Positions 1 to 16,600 of a stretch of 23,224 bases of DNA are shown here, in pieces (positions within the stretch are counted from its first letter, which is position 1; each line of letters starts with the position of its first letter). Position numbers and translations under genes: made by a program. The notes beneath the pieces are model-generated. The model did not search any database and was not told where the DNA came from. It saw only the letters and a program-made list of their open reading frames with translations. This stretch comes from a virus: IMG/VR virus record IMGVR_UViG_3300034403_000373, positions 1-23,224 of that record; one strand, written 5' to 3'.

Positions 1-120
1 ATTGCGATCGAAATACACCATACAATTAAGTTCCCAGCTAGACCTATACACAATATTAGTGTGATCCCCTCTGTATTTTTTAGGAAATTTCGGTTTAAAT
101 TTTCCTTGATGGTATTTCAT
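1..120 (-). CDS. 4: Head completion protein, gp4 type (5' part only)
   Basis: The minus strand reads from an ATG at 120-118 without a stop to the window edge, giving 40 residues that begin MKYHQGKFKPKFPKKYRG. The pattern of a basic GKFKPK...P.KY.G start followed by an Ile/Val-Tyr-Arg-Ser-x-Trp-Glu motif (residues about 23-30) and an aromatic 'YFDRN' segment is what I know from the N-terminus of T4 gp4-type head completion proteins. These act after DNA packaging to close the filled head before tail joining. A perfect late promoter lies upstream at 156-149 on the same strand. The predicted 23-nt leader has no visible Shine-Dalgarno sequence. The gene is cut by the window, so length and C-terminus are unknown. 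The family call rests on a short segment recalled from memory. Confidence 0.75.
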   Translation of the reverse strand, partial: MKYHQGKFKPKFPKKYRGDHTNIVYRSSWELNCMVYFDRN

Positions 121-129
121 AATAATTAT

Positions 130-137
130 TATAAATA
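130..137 (+). promoter_or_regulatory. T4-type late promoter for the gp48-onward operon
   Basis: A perfect TATAAATA is the consensus -10 element of T4 late promoters, which have no -35 and are read by a phage sigma (gp55) with the sliding clamp. With the usual spacing the start falls near 143, giving a leader of about 30 nt to the ATG at 173. AGGA at 161-164 is the ribosome binding site. It forms a dyad with the opposing element at 149-156. Confidence 0.8.
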
Positions 138-148
138 GTTTTGTTAAG

Positions 149-156
149 TATTTATA
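149..156 (-). promoter_or_regulatory. T4-type late promoter for the leftward gene 4
   Basis: The top strand reads TATTTATA, so the minus strand reads a perfect TATAAATA. The predicted start is again about 143, which leaves a 23-nt AU-rich leader before the gene 4 ATG. The element lies downstream of the plus-strand start, so each transcript runs through the other promoter's -10 box. Confidence 0.75.
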
Positions 157-172
157 ATACAGGAAAAAAAAT

Positions 173-1333
173 ATGGGTTTCATTAAAGATGCACTAGGTG
201 GGGGAATAAATTCAAACTCCATTAAGAGTCCATTTGGAATTAATGGTGTTGGAAATATTGGACTTTCGTTTGGCGAAAACGGTCCAAGCCTTTCAGCGAA
301 TTTCAATAGATTACTAAAAAAAGCAATAGATCCTTCAAAGGTTTCGGGGGAGCTATCATCGCTATATTCTTCGCCTGTAGAAGAATCTATAGTTTTTCCT
401 AAAGATCTAACTGACGAACACTATATGCTTATTAAGGTTATGAACCGAACACGTGCAAGTGCGGATAACGCTGACCAAAAACGTGTATGGCAGACCATAG
501 TTCTTCCTGTTCCAAGCAACCTTAAAACTGACTACAGTTTAAATTACGAACAGGCATCTTTAGGAATTCTTGGAGGCAAAGCAGCAGGAAGAGGAAGTCT
601 TACTGAAGGCAGTCAAGATATTGGTGCACTATTAGCTAATAAAATTGGAAATATTGGTTCTGAAGTCGGATTAGGTACATCTACCGACGGAAGCAAACGA
701 GGTGCATCTGATATGGTTGATACTGCTACTGCCATTGCTGGCGTTGCTGGTGCTGCATTACTTGGTAAAAAGTTAGGTGGCGGCATGCTTGGTGCGGCAA
801 TTGGTGCTGGTGCAGTTGGTGCTGATCAAGTTGGAACAGCTGTGATGATGAAGCAGGGGGTGGCAGTGAACCCTCATCTCGCTCAGGTATTCAAGGGAGT
901 AGGTCTTAGAGACTTCAATTTTTCTTGGAATCTGGTTGCACGTGATGAAGGAGAATCATTAATCATCAATAAATTAATTAATACATTAAAGAAATATTCT
1001 CATCCAGCATATTTTGCAGGGAGTTATGGTTTCGACTATCCTATGGAATTTGAAGTTGAATTCTCAGAACATATTGCGCACAATTTATTTAAAATTAATA
1101 GATCAGTTTTAAAAGGAGTTAATGTTGATTATGGACCGCAAGGTATTCCCCTATTCTTCGATAATGGTATGCCAGTTCAGGTCAATCTTGGGCTCCAATT
1201 CCAAGAAACTCAGATTATGACAGCTGAAGACTTCGGGGGGCATCCTCGCACAGCAGGATCGTCAGTTGATGGTGAATTCGAAGCATCAAAACCTGGATCA
1301 AGAGATGCTAAATTTATCTCAATAAACGGCTAG
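173..1333 (+). CDS. 48: Baseplate tail-tube cap, gp48 type (gp54 is the alternative)
   Basis: This 386-aa protein has the signs of the T4 gp48/gp54 pair, tube-like proteins that join the baseplate to the first tail-tube ring. An N-terminal block with 'LPVPSNLKTDYSLNYEQ' (about 111-127) matches the P-x-P...L-x-D-x-Y pattern. The C-terminal block has 'LRDFNFSWNLVARDEGES' (245-262), a helix ending in 'KYSHP', and then 'LGLQFQETQIMTAEDF' (339-354), the usual last beta strand. Between them, residues about 183-228 are a Gly/Ala-rich hydrophobic stretch resembling a membrane segment, which is odd for a soluble ring protein. The length is close to T4 gp48 (364 aa). Being followed by gp53 fits the order I recall from marine T4-like phages. 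The start is supported by AGGA 8 nt upstream. Whether it is gp48 or gp54 cannot be settled from one copy. Confidence 0.78.
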   Translation: MGFIKDALGGGINSNSIKSPFGINGVGNIGLSFGENGPSLSANFNRLLKKAIDPSKVSGELSSLYSSPVEESIVFPKDLTDEHYMLIKVMNRTRASADNADQKRVWQTIVLPVPSNLKTDYSLNYEQASLGILGGKAAGRGSLTEGSQDIGALLANKIGNIGSEVGLGTSTDGSKRGASDMVDTATAIAGVAGAALLGKKLGGGMLGAAIGAGAVGADQVGTAVMMKQGVAVNPHLAQVFKGVGLRDFNFSWNLVARDEGESLIINKLINTLKKYSHPAYFAGSYGFDYPMEFEVEFSEHIAHNLFKINRSVLKGVNVDYGPQGIPLFFDNGMPVQVNLGLQFQETQIMTAEDFGGHPRTAGSSVDGEFEASKPGSRDAKFISING

Positions 1334-1343
1334 GAGTTTAATT

Positions 1344-1919
1344 GTGTCAAACTATTTTTCATATTTCCCAAAGACTGAACAAAAAATTGGAGCAGGCGAT
1401 AGTCACGTATTATTGACCAATATTATGCGAAGATTTAAGATTAGGTCTTCTATAAAAAAGAATACGCAAGTATATCACGAATACTCAATTCAAGAAGGAG
1501 AAAGACCTGATATTATTGCTCATAAGTATTATGGATCGTCTAATTATGCTTGGATAATTCTCCATTATAACAATATTGTAGATCCTGTTTTCGGGTGGCC
1601 ATTATTTGGAGAAGAATTTCAAGATTACATTAAAGGGAAATATGGAAGTATTCCTGAGGCAAAGAACGAAGTTCATGAATATCGAAAAATTTTAACTCAT
1701 TCAAAAATTCATTTAAATGGGCATAAAATTAATGAACGTTACGTTGTCATCGATCTAGATCAGTATCAATACACCAGCCCAAAAGATCGAAAGACTGTAT
1801 ATAAGTATGATTATGAATTAGAAATTCAAGAAAAGAAACGCAAAATCAAATTGTTAGATAAGCGATATATTTCTAAAATTCGCGATGAAGTTGAAACGAT
1901 ACTCAGGGACGGAATCTAA
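1344..1919 (+). CDS. 53: Baseplate wedge subunit gp53
   Basis: The 191-aa length matches T4 gp53 (196 aa). The N-terminus 'SNYFSYFPK' is typical. Residues about 45-95 look LysM-like: 'YSIQEGERPDIIAHKYYGS' followed by 'YAWIILHYNNIVDPVFGWPL'. In T4, gp53 binds late to the assembled wedge near the hub and lets six wedges close around it. The start is a GTG at 1344 with AGGAG at 1332-1336. No ATG in frame nearby fits as well. The stop overlaps the next start as TAATG, which indicates translational coupling to the hub gene. The C-terminal third is highly charged and basic. Identification is by motif recognition and neighbourhood. Confidence 0.88.
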   Translation: MSNYFSYFPKTEQKIGAGDSHVLLTNIMRRFKIRSSIKKNTQVYHEYSIQEGERPDIIAHKYYGSSNYAWIILHYNNIVDPVFGWPLFGEEFQDYIKGKYGSIPEAKNEVHEYRKILTHSKIHLNGHKINERYVVIDLDQYQYTSPKDRKTVYKYDYELEIQEKKRKIKLLDKRYISKIRDEVETILRDGI

Positions 1920-4734: not shown

Positions 4735-5004
4735 ATGCCAGGAATATGCAGAGACACCACTGATACAGCCGGAGGAAAGTTGAATTCAACACAAACAACA
4801 GTTTATGCTGGAGGGCAACTTGTTATAATTGATGGAGACTCAGTGGATAGTCATGGTATATCTCTACATGATTCGCCGACTATGATTGCTGGTTCAAACA
4901 AAGTTTATATTGGCGGTGTTGCAGTTTGTAATGCAGGGGATTTAGCTACTTGCGGTGATGATGCAACTGGCTATGATAAGGTTAATGTAGGAGATCCAGA
5001 ATAA
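4735..5004 (+). CDS. 5.4: PAAR-domain spike-tip protein, gp5.4-like
   Basis: This 89-aa protein begins MPGICRDTTDTAGGK and contains 'DSVDSHGISLHDSPTM' and 'KVYIGGVAVCNAGDLATC'. These are the hallmarks of PAAR proteins, small cones that cap the beta-helix needle of contractile tails and type VI secretion spikes. Cys5, His40, His45, Cys65 and Cys73 are candidate metal ligands. I cannot tell which of them bind. T4 gp5.4 (97 aa) has the same role. It follows gp5 after 9 nt with an AAGGA ribosome site, and its stop overlaps the next start (TAATG). That coupling ties the 489-aa downstream protein to the tip. Confidence 0.88.
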   Translation: MPGICRDTTDTAGGKLNSTQTTVYAGGQLVIIDGDSVDSHGISLHDSPTMIAGSNKVYIGGVAVCNAGDLATCGDDATGYDKVNVGDPE

Positions 5005-6473
5005 TGGGTATTTGCAGTAAAAAAGACAGTGATATATCATTCATAACAGAGGGAAAGGATAAACTCAAATCCCTAATGAATGGAGGAATTGCTGCACTTA
5101 ATGATATGGAATCAGCACAAAAAGACATTAAAGCTGGATTTGATTCTCTTATAGCAAAAGCTGAATCGATGTTACCTGATCCAATGAGTTTACAGAAACG
5201 AATACAAAGTTTAATTTCTTCGGGAAATTCTACAGAATTTGCTAAAGGTTTAGCGAAAATAAAAGAGGATTTTGGTGAAGCAGTTACTGATTTAGATGAC
5301 CAATTATCTAAACTTTCCCCAGAATTAGCCAATTTTGCAGGGAGCATTCCTTCAATTTCGTTTGAATCAATTTGCGGAAAATTGCCTGATATAGAAGTTA
5401 AAGAACAAGAGATCACTGATCCTACAACTGGAAAAACCGAAACTAAAAAAGTTAAGGACGTTATTCCTAAAGAACCTGTTGTTCCTAAAGAAGAACCCAA
5501 GCCATCTGAACCTGCTCCTTCTACTGACACTAAAGAAACTGAAGCATTCGACAATGCATTTACAGTGTTTATGGCAGCAAAAAATAATCTTGAAGATAGA
5601 ACAAAAAAAGTTTTAACTGATTATGATGTAATGATTCCTTCAGTATATGAATCCTTCCAATGGAGTTTCAGAAACGGAATTTATGAAAAATGCGGTAGAG
5701 ATTTAGATAATGATTCTAATAATTTTATCTGGGAGACTGGACTGAAGTTTATAAAGATAGATGCTGAGAAATTTTATAATGTGTTTAAAAAGGCATTAAA
5801 AGATAAAAGCGGTCAGGAGACAGCCTTTCCTACGATAGATAATAGAACTGAAAAACTTTGGTCGGATCTTGTTAAATATTACAACCATTACTCAAAATAT
5901 TCATCTAATTTAGGAAATTATGGTGGAGAGCAAGGATTAATTGAGTTCTGTAATAAATGGTTTGATAATAATGATGAGAAACAAGAAGCACCGCAAAAGA
6001 AACAAGAAGAATTTAAGCAAGTTGCTGAACAAGAAGCACCAATATTAGCTGAACCATCGCCCGATCCTTCCCCAAAACCGCTGACTGGGGAACAAACGAA
6101 ATATTATTTAGGAAAAAAGATATTATATGATGCGGATTTAGTAAATACTAAAGTAGATTCTGCAACGTATAAGTTGAAATCTTCAGGAACTTGGTTTAGA
6201 GCATATAACCAAAAAGAATATGATTCGATGTTGAGGGTTGCTAAGACTCATAATTCCGAATTAGTTACATTAGCTGCAAGAATAGGAACCACGGAATTGG
6301 TTGTCCTATATAAACACAAAAGGCGAAATTCAATATCTAGAATGGTAGTCGATCATCAAGGATTGAGTCCTAGAGCAAAAGAAAATTGGAAAGCTAGGAC
6401 TGAATCTATAGAATTTAAATCAAGATTATCTAAATTAGGCGTAAAACTAATAGACGGGAAATATTCAGTATAA
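5004..6473 (+). CDS. Unknown 489-aa protein coupled to the PAAR gene
   Basis: I do not recognise this family. The start overlaps the PAAR stop, with AGGAGA at 4989-4994. The visible layout has four parts. Residues about 1-130 are mostly helical with coiled-coil character and begin MGICSKKD, which echoes the PAAR start MPGICRD. Residues about 150-178 are a Lys/Glu/Pro linker. Residues about 180-322 are a helical, aromatic-rich domain ('YESFQWSFRNGIYEKCGRD', 'FIWETGLKFIKIDAEKFYNV'). After a second Gln/Glu/Pro linker (about 325-362), a basic C-terminal domain follows (about 363-489) with 'LGKKILYDADLV' and 'HKRRNSISRMVV'. There is no signal peptide or membrane helix. Position suggests a virion hub component, tape-measure-related part, hub chaperone, or cargo carried near the tip. 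None of these is proven. A late promoter overlaps its last codons. Confidence 0.85.
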   Translation: MGICSKKDSDISFITEGKDKLKSLMNGGIAALNDMESAQKDIKAGFDSLIAKAESMLPDPMSLQKRIQSLISSGNSTEFAKGLAKIKEDFGEAVTDLDDQLSKLSPELANFAGSIPSISFESICGKLPDIEVKEQEITDPTTGKTETKKVKDVIPKEPVVPKEEPKPSEPAPSTDTKETEAFDNAFTVFMAAKNNLEDRTKKVLTDYDVMIPSVYESFQWSFRNGIYEKCGRDLDNDSNNFIWETGLKFIKIDAEKFYNVFKKALKDKSGQETAFPTIDNRTEKLWSDLVKYYNHYSKYSSNLGNYGGEQGLIEFCNKWFDNNDEKQEAPQKKQEEFKQVAEQEAPILAEPSPDPSPKPLTGEQTKYYLGKKILYDADLVNTKVDSATYKLKSSGTWFRAYNQKEYDSMLRVAKTHNSELVTLAARIGTTELVVLYKHKRRNSISRMVVDHQGLSPRAKENWKARTESIEFKSRLSKLGVKLIDGKYSV

Positions 6474-6476
6474 ATA
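6469..6476 (+). promoter_or_regulatory. T4-type late promoter for the gp25-gp6 wedge operon
   Basis: A perfect TATAAATA covers the stop codon of the 489-aa gene. The expected start is about 6482, giving a leader of about 86 nt before gp25 at 6568. It is the only promoter-like element in the only sizeable gap of the baseplate cluster. This makes it more credible than a chance match in AT-rich DNA. Confidence 0.7.
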
Positions 6477-6567: not shown

Positions 6568-6957
6568 ATGGAAAACGTGGAAACATATAGCGATTTGAAT
6601 TTAGAGTTCATTGCTCATCCACTAACTGGAAATGTAGCAAGAAAAATTGACAGAACCGCAGTAAGGCAATCTGTCAAAAATTTAATTCTAACAAATTTTT
6701 ATGATCGTCCATTTCAGCCTGAATTGGGGTGCGGGATAAGTTATCATCTTTTTGAATTATTTACCTCTGCGACTAAGCAGTCACTTGAAACGGCAATGAG
6801 AGAAGTGATTGAAAATTACGAACCGAGAGCAAGTATTTTGGAAGTTTTAGTTGAAGACCACCCAGACGACAATGCATTGAGCGCATCTATCGCCTTTATG
6901 ATTAGAAACGACCCAAACCCAATTGTTCTAGACCTAATACTTGAGCGAGTAAGATAA
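6568..6957 (+). CDS. 25: Baseplate wedge subunit gp25
   Basis: At 129 aa it matches T4 gp25 (132 aa) and the GPW/gp25 family shared with type VI secretion (TssE). Signs are 'IAHPLTGNVARKIDRTAVRQ' near the start, 'NFYDRPFQPELGCGI' (about 43-57), and the conserved Glu-Pro-Arg at 85-87 in 'NYEPRASI'. gp25 sits where the wedge meets the sheath and primes sheath polymerisation. AAAGG at 6555-6559 is 8 nt from the ATG. The stop abuts the ATG of gp6 with no gap. It is the first gene after the late promoter at 6469. Confidence 0.95.
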   Translation: MENVETYSDLNLEFIAHPLTGNVARKIDRTAVRQSVKNLILTNFYDRPFQPELGCGISYHLFELFTSATKQSLETAMREVIENYEPRASILEVLVEDHPDDNALSASIAFMIRNDPNPIVLDLILERVR

Positions 6958-11700: not shown

Positions 11701-11868
11701 AATGAAGTTGGCGGAACTGATAATATATTCGTAGAATTTACTCCGCAGGAATATAATACTCTTAAACTAAATATAGTAACAAGTGACACTTTAGCAAATC
11801 TCAATTCGTTATGGATTGGACCAGATTTCACTGGGGTCAACATGCATTACACAACAGGGTCATTCTAA
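8746..11868 (+). CDS. 7: Baseplate wedge protein, gp7-like, with rearranged domain order
   Basis: At 1040 aa it is nearly the size of T4 gp7 (1032 aa) and sits between gp6 and gp8, as in T4. The helical N-terminus has 'QNFLAFMEAYYEWMETNGQ' (about 23-41) and 'SRGTLSSYKLMFRSIYNESV' (95-114), ending in 'ILKVSDGDW'. It resembles a segment that in T4 gp7 lies in the C-terminal third (as I recall, 'FEAFCEAYIQYLSDG' and 'ASYKFLFKVLYNEEVEI'). A His-Pro-Ser-Gly at 849-852 resembles the HPVG near the T4 C-terminus. Between them are about 700 residues of beta-rich insertion with GSGY-type motifs at about 263-267, 596-600 and 766-769. The last 150 residues hold a duplicated module. It overlaps gp8 by TAATG. 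The gp7 name is by position and motif. Confidence 0.78.
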   Translation: MAIEKISTLVKNQFPAFYKEDGQNFLAFMEAYYEWMETNGQMSDAVRNLESWNDISTTTEEFIDYFFHTLLPSVPVEVVANKKLMAKYVREFNTSRGTLSSYKLMFRSIYNESVELNYPSEQILKVSDGDWNLEQYLVTNYNTQNYTFIGKTIKGKNSKAEALVEDIRTIVVRSRHIHQFIISNIKGIFNDKEPISIKYNNDSEYYPIIDAGINSIAIATSGGEYRRGDVVGILSGNVGDLAKVVITDTIDLGGAISFSLNDGGSGYGASTDETVWGDTDIFIDGGDGVEKGSFTIERTDLHDMFALSVNVNTLNSNTIFGNNAPVISQVGGGFLTASTFANTVLGQASFGFPEHGENVGNANYHDQEAAWITINSSTDPGIAIDQGLYGATSGANATVVTAIRGYSNNNIVLRVNGYKDWIVGETVNSFVGGSLSPIGTVGKWAANTVGSHELQLGWIPDSTINPLLDDVELVGIDSGAYGVVRKIVPPDSANPSTTYLVNGYQDTTSNTYRDLYKVYVSANSTANTSSQFDTGPMKAFEEGEGLRIVGSSTLMANAVGTTSNAVCENIHTKLSDSLIFAATYYGSIGKLSNMVGGSGYSIKPEVTVRANDIAALGIGEAYLTLQTDDQYWNSGNSHILKIDTNDRIVQSSSGASGDVKGGDIGSDTTSIVQHANGTIEMVARVWQDFLQREPGNIMWKVGDNAALKFYGESYIPGEVDDRSTTGTGQATITSVVDRGVLGKNAIVQTGIGANGAISGVRVLDSGFSYLNNEEVVFESTGRNRAVSGTGIVKLKGSANSEGYYSTSRSLLSSKRSYIQDSNYYQEFSYELISPISFSRYRDIALNLCHPSGQILFGKYQTSSNVQVEVSANTTKSTLSSMEGTFSLTKPKASGTISIANDGQEVIGVSTALSNQMSNNDYIIIETDPGDEIDNLFWLTKLNVVSDSTTANLANVWSHGNVLNANVYFANTGTSHNIIGLNSNLTNEVGGTDNIFVEFTPQEYNTLKLNIVTSDTLANLNSLWIGPDFTGVNMHYTTGSF
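11425..11820 (+). repeat. Duplicated module at the C-terminus of the gp7-like protein
   Basis: Residues 894-958 and 966-1025 of the gp7-like product align by eye. Each starts with a short strand pair, has 'I.G..T.LSN' or 'IIGLNSNLTN', then 'D.I.IE/VEF.P', then 'L.L.I/VVSD..TANL...W'. The DNA copies have diverged, so this is an old protein-level duplication. A similar 'GTV...GTAVSGSGTDF...GD.I.I' unit occurs near residue 587 of the DUF4815-type protein. Confidence 0.6.
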
Positions 11869-13649
11869 TGCCAGTTTATAGATACGCAACTAAAGACTTA
11901 TCAATCACTACAGCTGAAGCGTTTATAAGACGTGTGCAGGCGACTGATAGTAGTGATGATAAAAACTCATCTATCCTTTATATTTGTTTAGGTAAAACAG
12001 AAGAATGGGAAGATGAGCCTAATCCGAGTACTCCGCCAGACAACGAGCAATATTTACATTATAATGTTCATCGAGAGTTCATAGGCGGGAAAAAAGTAGA
12101 AACTTCTGACATTACACATGTTATTGATAGACATGATTGGATTTTTGGAACGGTATATTCTATGTATCGCGATATTGATACCGATATGTACGATCGTAAA
12201 TTTTATGTACTTACTTCTGAATATAATGTTTATAAATGCTTATATAATAATAAGGGTGGATATTCAACCATAATGCCGAAAGGGTTTTCAACCCTACCAT
12301 TTACATCATCTGACGGATATACATGGAAATATATGTATACGGTTCCATTAGGAGAGCAACAAAAGTTTCTTACTGCTTCCCACATACCTGTCAAAACTAT
12401 TGAATTGGGTGATGGGGGAGTAGAATCTTCTAGGCAAGTTGCAGTTCAGTCATCCTCAGTCAATGGTGCAATACATGTTATTGAAACTGTGGATTCAGGT
12501 TCAAGGTATCATACTCTTTCCTCAGGGGTTGTTGAATCCGCAACTGAAACAACTCTGCGGGTGTTTAATAGTCCGGACGTATCACCATCACCTATTGATA
12601 ATATATACAATGGGTCATCAGTATATATTACTGGCGGAACCGGAACTGGCCAATTGCGGAGAATAATAAAATATTTTGGGTCTACAAAAACTTTAGTTGT
12701 AAACACTGCATTTCAAACTCTAGCCAATTCTGATTCTAGAATTATCATATCGCCCACCGTAACTATTATTGGGGATGGGAGTGGGAGTAAAGCGTATTCG
12801 TTGGTCGATGAAACTGACGGATCAATTTCTAGTATCAATTTGATAGATAATGGGCAACAATATACTCGAGCGCAAGCATTGATAACCTCAAATGGTGTAC
12901 ATGGAACTGGCGCAACCGCAAATGTAGTAATTTCTCCGCTTGGTGGACATGGGAGTAACCCTGTCCGTGAATTGTATGGCGATAAAGTCATGCTTAATGT
13001 TCAATTTAATGGAACAGAAGGAATATCAGCTAACGGTAATGGATATATCCCATCAAATACAGAATTTCGAACAATCAGTATATTACGTGACCCAATATTA
13101 AAGTGCGATGCTAATAATAATTTAACGTCATCTGAAAATATTGCAAACACAAGTAATTCCCCATCATCGTTGAGATTATGTTCAAGGGCAGTTATTTCAT
13201 ACACCGAAATGGATGAAGGCGTTCCTGCAAATCCTCTCGCGATAAATGACACGATAACTAATGAGCGAAATCGTCTTCGTGCCGAGTTAGGGGAACTTGA
13301 ATTTGTGACTGAGTTGGGGTATATTTCTCGTAAAGCTGCTGCTATGGAAAATGCCGTAAAATCGGCAAATGCAAATATTGTATATATTCGTGAAGATGAA
13401 ACGGAAAGCGATACTTCATTTTATACTTCTTATATAAATAACGTTGAGAGTTATAGCGATTATTCCGCTTTTGTTAAGGATGACGTCATCCTTAAACGAG
13501 GTTCCGAAAATAAAATCGCTACTGTTGAGTCCATTAAAGGACCTGAAGCAAACACATATTCTGGCGAAGTAATATACACTGAAAATACGCATCCAGTTAC
13601 CCGCAGTCCAGAACAGATTGAAGATATTAAAATCATTTTAGATTTTTAG
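11868..13649 (+). CDS. 8: Baseplate wedge subunit gp8-like, enlarged
   Basis: I place the start at 11868 (MPVYRYATKD), where ATG overlaps the preceding stop as TAATG. An upstream in-frame ATG at 11811 would lie 57 nt inside the gp7-like gene. The product has 593 aa against 334 in T4 gp8. Matches to T4 gp8 as I recall it are 'DKNSSILYICLGKTEEW' (31-47; T4 DKNTIFITFGRSEPW), 'SDGYTWKYMYTVP' (148-160), 'FRTISILRDPI' (400-410), and the end 'GEVIYTENTHPV...Q.EDIKIILDF'. The extra length lies mainly at about 180-390, a beta-rich insertion with GSRY and GQQY motifs like those of the gp7-like protein, and at about 410-560. In T4 the gp8 dimer joins gp7 and gp10 in the wedge. A perfect 22-bp palindrome lies in the coding sequence. 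Confidence 0.85.
   Translation: MPVYRYATKDLSITTAEAFIRRVQATDSSDDKNSSILYICLGKTEEWEDEPNPSTPPDNEQYLHYNVHREFIGGKKVETSDITHVIDRHDWIFGTVYSMYRDIDTDMYDRKFYVLTSEYNVYKCLYNNKGGYSTIMPKGFSTLPFTSSDGYTWKYMYTVPLGEQQKFLTASHIPVKTIELGDGGVESSRQVAVQSSSVNGAIHVIETVDSGSRYHTLSSGVVESATETTLRVFNSPDVSPSPIDNIYNGSSVYITGGTGTGQLRRIIKYFGSTKTLVVNTAFQTLANSDSRIIISPTVTIIGDGSGSKAYSLVDETDGSISSINLIDNGQQYTRAQALITSNGVHGTGATANVVISPLGGHGSNPVRELYGDKVMLNVQFNGTEGISANGNGYIPSNTEFRTISILRDPILKCDANNNLTSSENIANTSNSPSSLRLCSRAVISYTEMDEGVPANPLAINDTITNERNRLRAELGELEFVTELGYISRKAAAMENAVKSANANIVYIREDETESDTSFYTSYINNVESYSDYSAFVKDDVILKRGSENKIATVESIKGPEANTYSGEVIYTENTHPVTRSPEQIEDIKIILDF
13433..13440 (+). promoter_or_regulatory. Possible intragenic late promoter ahead of the DUF4815-type gene
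   Basis: A perfect TATAAATA lies inside the gp8-like gene, 220 nt before the next ATG. A few such 8-mers are expected by chance in 23 kb of AT-rich DNA, and it reads as ordinary codons (TAT ATA AAT). Its place 34 nt upstream of a 22-bp palindrome, ahead of the longest gene, is the only reason to list it. Confidence 0.25.
13474..13495. repeat. Perfect 22-bp palindrome inside the gp8-like gene
   Basis: TTAAGGATGA-CG-TCATCCTTAA is identical to its reverse complement over all 22 bases and encodes Val-Lys-Asp-Asp-Val-Ile-Leu-Lys. As RNA it would fold into a tight stem of 9 bp with a 4-nt loop. It lies about 165 nt upstream of the DUF4815-type start. It could be a protein-binding dyad, a processing stem or chance. 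Confidence 0.6.
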
Positions 13650-13659
13650 GAAATAGCTA

Positions 13660-16600
13660 ATGGCAATTGAAACAAATTTAAACCAAAGTCCTTATTTTGA
13701 CGACTTTGATGTAGATAAAAACTATCATCGTGTTCTTTTTCGTCCTGGATATGCAGTTCAGGCAAGAGAATTAACGCAATTACAAACAATTCTTCAAAAT
13801 CAAGTTGAAAAATTTGCCAATGAAGTTATGGTTGATGGAACAATTGTTACTGGCGGTGGGTTAATTACTGATAACACCAATTACGTTAAGATGCGTGATA
13901 AAGATGCTAATAACCGAGTGGTTTTACTTGGGGATTTTTATTCTCAAGGGAAGATAGCAAATGTAACTATTACCGGAATCACTAGCGGAATTAATGCTAA
14001 ATTAGTTGCGGTGAAGGAAGGATCGGAGTCAACTGGAGGAAATTACTTAACCGCTTACTGCCATTATACTGATTCTGGACTTGATAAACAAACTAAATCT
14101 TTTTCTGATAATGAAGAATTAGATTTTAAATGGTCGTCTGGTGGGAGTCATAAATTCTTTGCTAACTCTATAGCTACAAATGCTACAGGTAAAGCATTAA
14201 AAGTAAATATTGAGGATGGAGTAATATATCATAAAGGGAATTTTATTTCTATGCCAGCGCAAAGTGCTATTGTTGGTAGATATACTACAACTCCTGATGC
14301 GTTCATTGGATTGACTACAGAAGAAACTCTTGTAGATTCAAATCAAGATTCTTCGCTTTTAGATAATGCTTCGGGAGCAACAAACTACGCTGCTCCAGGT
14401 GCTAGTCGCTTGAGATTGCAACCGAAATTGACAGTACATCCGTATGGGTTTGCAAATACTTCATCTTATTTTACCGTTGCAACAGTAGAAAATGGTTCTA
14501 TTGTCCAAAAAAATACTGACACTATATATTCTGATGTGGGCAATTATGTTGCAGAACGGTTATATGATACTAATGGGAATTTTGTTGTAGATCCATTTAA
14601 TATTAGAATCAGAGAACATTTAAAAATAGAGGGTTCTCTAGGGCGATTTGTAGCATCCGAAGGAGGGTCAACTGATAAGTTGATATGTGAAGTTGAAAGG
14701 GGGGCAGGGTATGTTAATGGCAATAAAATTACATTACAGGCTCCACGATTTTTAGAATTCGATAAAGCCGCAAATACTATTCAAAAAGATTCAGTTGTAG
14801 TAGGGCAATCGTTCGGAAATTATATAAAGGTTAATGAAGTCTGCGGTACTTGGGATATTGATAATCATGGATCAATTACCTTATATGATAGCGCAGCACA
14901 AGCGTTAACTAATGTAAACTATAGTGTGCAAGCTGTATCAGGAAGTGCAAGTGCAATTGGAACTGCTAAAATTCGCGGATTTCAGTGGGATAGTGGTATT
15001 GCAGGAACGCCAACTGCGGTATATAGACTATATTTGTTCGACATTAAAATGGACGAAGAAAAGTCATTTTCTAGTGTCAAAGGTGTACATAGAACCGATT
15101 CTTTTGCTGATATTGTTCTTGAAAATAATATAGCCAAACTTAATGAATCTAGTTTAAGTCGGTTGGTGTTTGGGTTAGGGCAAAGAGCCGCAAAATCGTT
15201 AACCAGTTCAGATAATACCCATAGCACATCATGGGTGTATCGTAGATCTGAAGATACAACTTTCGATGTTTCTGGACTATCAACCATTTCATTGACCTCT
15301 CCGCATACTGGGGGGAGCGAAACTCCATGGAACACAGGAAATACTATTACTGATGTATCCGAATCTAGAAATTATATTGTAGTAGCAAAAGAAGATGTTA
15401 CGACTGCTGGAATGTCGGGAACAGTCACGTGTTCAGGCACAGCTGTGTCTGGATCGGGCACCGATTTCCAATCACAATACCAAGTAGGCGATTTAATTAA
15501 AATTGGGACAGCAGCTGCCGTTAGGATAGTAAGTATCTCATCTGCTACATTGATGGCAGTATCAAGTTCAGTTACCCAAGGTTCCGCAACCACCCATAAA
15601 AAACATTTCCCTAAAGGTTATATTTTTGATTTAAGCGAAAATGGAACAATAATTTCTAGCGGAACTCCTGCAACCGTCGAAATTGATCTTCAGCAACACA
15701 CTTTTGCCTCAAGTTTTGCTTCTACGGTGTACTTTAACGTCAACAGAACATCTTCCCGCCATGTAGGAAAGGTTGTTCATAAAAATAAGTTTGTTCATAT
15801 TAATACGTCTAGCCACACTACAGCAGGTGCTGTTGGACCATGGTCGTTAGGAATAACTGACGCATATAAAATAAATGCTGTATATCTAGGTCCAACGACA
15901 TCTGTTAGTGATAGTTCAACTAATGTGACCAATCAATTTGAACTTATCTCTGGGCAGACAGATGACTTGTATGACATTTCATATTTGGCATTAAAAGCTG
16001 ATAGTGATTTAGATGTGACATCTAAAGGAATTATGGTTGAGTTTAGCTATTTTACTCGAGATACAAGTCAGGGTATCGGGTTCTTTTCAGTAGATTCTTA
16101 TCCCACTTCTAACACTACTCCAATAGAATCTGATAGGATTGAATGGTACGAGATTCCTGTGTTTAGAAGTCCTACATCCGGAGTAACATATGATCTTCGC
16201 GACCATATAGATTTCAGACCAACACGACTATCAACAGTAACTCCAGCTGCAACAGGAACAGTCGCACTTGCACCAACAAATCCAAGTATTACCTCCGACA
16301 TGGACACTTCGGATGCTTCATATTACCCAACGCCTGATGAAAATTTTGTTTGTGATTCTAAGTTCTATTTACCTCGTCGGGATAGGGTCATCATTACTAA
16401 AGGTGGGACGTTTCAAGTCAGTAGGGGCGTTCCCGATTTGAATCCAAAAACTCCTAATGAAATTAGCGAATCTATGACGTTGGGTATATTGGATATTCCT
16501 CCATTTCCTTCCCTTTCTCCATATTTGAGTAAGGCGGTCGGAAGAAAAGATTATTCTGTAAATTTGTCGTTAGAAAATAATCGACGATATACTATGAAAG

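Follow-up and report, generated by a model that had tools for sequence, protein, structure and literature searches.

A conserved inward-facing pair of predicted late promoters at the gene 4 junction of T4-like phages

Introduction

In bacteriophage T4, a late promoter consists only of an 8-bp TATA box (PMC2988020), which is numbered -13 to -6 and is not accompanied by a -35 element (PMC2988020, PMC1524935). The direction of activation is set by which strand is nicked, and hence by the orientation of the loaded sliding clamp, and the relative rates of late promoters in vivo have not been determined in T4 (PMC2988020). A second point of comparison is provided by the bidirectional promoters of Escherichia coli, at which polymerases compete only when one of the two directions is strongly activated (PMC12825309).

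The locus described here lies in a virus fragment of 23,224 bases from IMG/VR (referred to below as the window, by which we mean this whole stretch of DNA). Its 5' end starts inside gene 4, which is followed by gp48, gp53, and further baseplate genes. Gene 4, reading leftward, and gp48, reading rightward, are divergent, with 52 bp between their start codons, and it is in this interval that two putative late promoters face each other.

Results

The gene 4-gp48 junction

The features of the junction and of its flanking genes are as follows.

1..120, minus strand: 5' part of gene 4, head closure/completion (phrog_218), with its ATG at 120, the rest of the gene being cut off by the window edge; full-length gene 4 is found at 1518-1949 of the contig L002, and the full protein matches PF08722 (TnsA-like).
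127..159: full dyad with 11-bp arms (127-137 and 149-159), read from the sequence.
130..137, plus strand: TATAAATA, a predicted late -10 box that would serve gp48-gp53 and the rightward baseplate operon; it matches the consensus exactly and stands 35 nt ahead of the gp48 ATG.
138..148: N11 spacer GTTTTGTTAAG, the length of which varies in relatives.
143: base on which T4 numbering places the predicted +1 of both promoters, from geometry (plus-strand G, minus-strand C).
149..156, minus strand: TATAAATA, the predicted late -10 box of gene 4, the ATG of which follows 28 nt later.
161..164, plus strand: AGGA, Shine-Dalgarno-like, for gp48, read from the sequence.
173..1333, plus strand: gp48, baseplate tail tube cap (phrog_230), with its ATG at 173.
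1344..1919, plus strand: gp53, baseplate wedge subunit (phrog_232, PF11246).

An initial annotation had described two perfect late -10 boxes on opposite strands within a 27-mer symmetric about base 143, and the sequence confirms this description; the arms of the dyad in fact extend further than first noted, with 127-137 pairing with 149-159 over 11 bp. A single TATAAATA is at chance level in this AT-rich window (4 copies seen versus 4.04 expected). The correctly oriented dyad is rare, with 1 seen versus 0.11 expected in the 23-kb window even when 2 mismatches are allowed. When the 52-bp intergenic stretch was subjected to dinucleotide shuffling, both perfect boxes appeared in 0.3% of the shuffles, face-to-face perfect boxes appeared in 0.06%, and such boxes at a spacing of N11 appeared in 0.002%.

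Two extra perfect copies of TATAAATA lie on the plus strand, one at 6469-6476, where it overlaps the end of ORF 5004-6473 and is followed 92 nt later by the wedge-subunit gene at 6568, and the other at 13433-13440, inside ORF 11811-13649 and 220 nt before the gene at 13660. ORF 5004-6473 (489 aa), flanked in the baseplate operon by genes for a PAAR protein and a baseplate wedge protein, had no PHROG match.

Both boxes of the dyad match the T4 late consensus exactly, each is placed to drive its own gene, and both lie upstream of orthologues of T4 late genes (gp4, phrog_218; gp48/gp53, phrog_230 and phrog_232). A gene for gp55 (phrog_234, with E values of 1e-60 or better) is present in two long relatives that share the inward pair; gp55 was not seen in the 23-kb fragment, which is too short to show it. 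The literature searched gave no experimentally mapped late start for either gene 4 or gene 53. Very probably, two divergent late operons of a T4-like phage have their common promoter region here, made up of two independent predicted late promoters. The plus-strand box would fire gp48-gp53 and the genes after them and the minus-strand box would fire gene 4, with recognition in both cases expected to be by a gp55-type late sigma factor acting with the sliding clamp and the host's RNA polymerase. No clear Shine-Dalgarno sequence was found for gene 4 in its predicted leader.

Conservation of the inward pair

Because a DNA-level search of a phage collection with the first 1.4 kb of the window gave no match, relatives were sought by protein. 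Four gp4 searches of viral contigs, together with the annotated phages, yielded 296 divergent gp4 junctions, which formed 176 clusters at 95% gp4 identity. The two boxes faced inward in 107 of these clusters, whereas dinucleotide shuffling of the same regions gave an expectation of 1.3. They stood back to back in 15 clusters (1.7 expected), a count that is slightly high in that two junctions (L106 and L184) were scored so by the nearest-pair rule yet also hold an inward pair. A plus-strand box only was present in 34 clusters, a minus-strand box only in 14, and neither in 6. The true back-to-back cases were mostly HTVC008M-like pelagiphages, in which the junction is gp2/gp4. With clustering at 65% gp4 identity, 26 of 48 clusters were inward versus 0.4 in shuffles; at 80%, one core carried a mismatch in 15 of 95 clusters, and 27 of 95 fell into neither the inward nor the back-to-back class by exact cores.

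T4, RB69, DP45, and three long IMG/VR records each hold a single inward pair with perfect TATAAATA boxes, which in every case lies at gene 4, and the perfect-box back-to-back form was found once in twelve records. Nine of 12 further phage genomes carry a TAAATA-core pair at gene 4, with 0 to 2 other matches each, a number similar to that given by a reversed-pattern control.

Among the closest relatives, L002, which is 100% identical in gp48 and gp4, has the same dyad, and the closest distinct relative (L003; 83% identity in gp48 and 93% in gp4) keeps both boxes with a spacer of 22 versus 11. Twenty-two junctions were then set out in one orientation. In T4 the pair occupies 77349-77371, between gene 4 (start at 77337) and gene 53 (start at 77385), and inward pairs were likewise present in T2 and RB69 (gene 4/53; N7), RB49 (N8), Acinetobacter phage DP45 (N15), Ochrobactrum phage OspM_OC (N17), the cyanophages (N16-19), P-SSM2 (N18, with a different partner gene), and Sinorhizobium phage phiM7 (N21). 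Aeromonas phage PX29 and Vibrio phage PG216 have back-to-back boxes instead, K469 and RN05-S have one exact box each, and Cr30, the annotated gp4 start of which is doubtful, has no box at the junction. Three contigs with 83% gp4 identity (L110, L111, and L113) lack an exact minus-strand core.

The second box, the conservation of which the initial annotation had set as a test, is thus retained together with the first far beyond close kin. These comparisons lend good support to the view that the inward pair at gene 4 is an old, space-saving layout common to most T4-like phages, including T4. Our literature search turned up no earlier description of the gene 4 pair, which is not proof that it is undescribed.

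Several variant junctions were seen in the course of the survey. Upstream of gp4 in L110, L111, and L113, a CTATATA-like sequence replaces the gp4-strand box and the opposite box is still perfect. In six other contigs (L037, L038, L043, L048, L066, and L096), the gp4-strand box appears to read TATACATA, not TATAAATA, and ends ~6 to 7 nt before the gp4 ATG, so that the late mRNA is possibly leaderless. The gp2 box of the HTVC008M-like pelagiphages (L004 1980-2050; L274-L290 gp2/gp4) ends ~5 nt before the ATG, and their gp2 mRNA is predicted to be leaderless. In Synechococcus phage ACG-2014f (L022 1042-1513), an annotated group I intron endonuclease gene lies between gp4 and its divergent partner, at the promoter junction.

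Spacing and predicted start points

The spacing analysis used the 103 of the 107 inward clusters in which N is 4 or more. N ranged from 7 to 24, with one value of 30, and was mostly 13 to 18; only two clusters (L002 and L299) have N = 11. The N11 spacing, which the initial annotation had proposed to test in relatives, is therefore not conserved, the relative with 93% gp4 identity being a case in point.

The initial annotation had also placed both +1 positions on base 143. This holds by T4 numbering, and the predicted starts in this window do coincide, so that they do not match the divergent-start spacings of the E. coli type (10, 18, and 23 bp). A minus-strand start at this base is nevertheless doubtful, because a minus-strand C at the position equivalent to 143 occurs in only 2 of the 103 junctions, and the sequences suggest the A at 142 as the more likely minus-strand start. 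Since a shared start base requires N = 11, which is confined to L002 and L299, it is incidental; as judged from these junctions, the single shared start is a local coincidence with no special role.

Interleaved leaders and mutual exclusion

The distance from box to start codon has a median of 29 nt for both genes, and the gap between the genes has a median of 42 bp (103 inward clusters). With the boxes facing inward, each promoter would lie within the untranslated leader of the other transcript, and the layout may persist since two leaders of ~25 nt fit in 30 to 60 bp in this way. As roughly 74 bp would be taken up by back-to-back promoters that had leaders of this length, the inward placement can be seen as the compact solution. 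An exact trade-off between N and gap length arising from a fixed leader length was also considered and was dropped, as the two were only weakly correlated, and not stably so from one analysis to another (r = -0.33 and -0.05).

The proposal that the transcripts cross each other's -10 and that only one promoter can be used at a time is borne out as far as geometry goes. Two polymerases on boxes 11 bp apart would be expected to exclude each other sterically, on each DNA molecule separately. A larger role had been proposed for this arrangement, namely, that of a dedicated switch in which one shared start sets the operons for head completion and the baseplate in competition and thereby keeps their output in balance. 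The bidirectional promoters of E. coli can show competition when strongly activated, which is in keeping with a switch, but they show none at basal activity (PMC12825309). Also in its favor are the geometry, which should leave no room for two polymerases on boxes 11 bp apart and takes each transcript through the other -10, and the strong preference for inward over back-to-back pairs; a switch built on a shared start, however, calls for the N = 11 seen in 2 of 103 clusters and absent (N = 22) from the relative with 93% gp4 identity, and Aeromonas, Vibrio, and pelagiphage relatives can have their boxes back to back. In addition, late in T4 infection transcription runs on many DNA template copies. 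Exclusion would be momentary and would concern one DNA molecule, whereas late templates are many, so that its effect would average out over them. The balancing of head completion against the baseplate operon is thus unsupported, and we regard a dedicated switch as unlikely.

If the two promoters are instead independent, as we favor, the orientation of the clamp would be the most natural chooser between them. Since clamp orientation sets the direction of activation in T4, it probably also chooses here which way a given firing goes. A bolder proposal is that selection has maintained the pair throughout the T4 superfamily because it acts as an orientation-gated promoter, at which clamp orientation, given by the primer or nick strand, picks the operon and ties head-completion and baseplate transcription to the direction of the replication fork; we offer this as a speculation with a small chance of being correct.

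One promoter or none

It could be argued that only one box is an active promoter and that the other arose by chance in sequence rich in A and T, given that lone copies of TATAAATA are at chance level in the window and that the minus-strand box is degenerate in the three relatives at 83% gp4 identity. This reading is made very improbable by the occurrence of both boxes together far above chance (107 of 176 clusters versus 1.3 in shuffles) and by the need of the divergent gene 4 for a promoter of its own. That the dyad acts as a hairpin in RNA or DNA, or as an operator for a dimeric regulator, rather than as two promoters is scarcely credible: the 11-bp arms do fold as RNA at -8.2 kcal/mol (z = -3.5), but a transcript from 143 carries one arm only, pairing outside the 8-mers across the 103 junctions equals that of shuffled partners (0.18 versus 0.19 at -14 and 0.20 versus 0.24 at -15), the two boxes often differ (for example, CATAAATA versus CCTAAATA in cyanophages), and the spacer may be anything from 7 to 24 bases long, or 30 in one case. 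The simplest explanation for an excess of pairing at -12 and -13 is that each phage group has its own flavor of the box.

Discussion

The compact two-way late promoter appears to be an old feature of the gene 4 junction that is present in T4 itself. The shared start point is no longer something to explain, and the part of the original observation worth keeping is the broad conservation of the pair at gene 4. The T4 gene 4/53 junction could serve as a ready laboratory model, both for possible interference between late promoters that would be expected to exclude each other sterically and for a possible setting of direction by the clamp.

The T4 junction (NC_000866 77349-77371) resembles the locus described here in that two perfect TATAAATA boxes face inward, with gene 4 on one side and a divergent baseplate gene on the other. 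It differs in its spacing of 7, as a consequence of which the predicted T4 starts do not coincide, and in its partner, which is gene 53 in T4 and gp48-gp53 here. The gp4/gp48 junctions of P-SSM7, P-SSM4, S-H25, S-RIM2, and phiM7 have the same genes and the same inward pair; the boxes of these cyanophages and this rhizobiophage read CATAAATA, CCTAAATA, or TATAAATA at spacings of 16 to 21, and in most of these cyanophages the plus-strand box overlaps the gp4 start codon. The bidirectional promoters of E. coli have symmetric -10 elements for a host sigma factor and divergent starts that are usually 18 bp apart, with 10 and 23 bp also common (PMC12825309). Unlike that class, the present site has two separate late boxes facing inward across a spacer, and a phage sigma factor would be expected to recognize them; the box TATTTAGCTAAATA of Aeromonas phage PX29, which is back-to-back and overlapping, looks closer to the E. 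coli bidirectional class.
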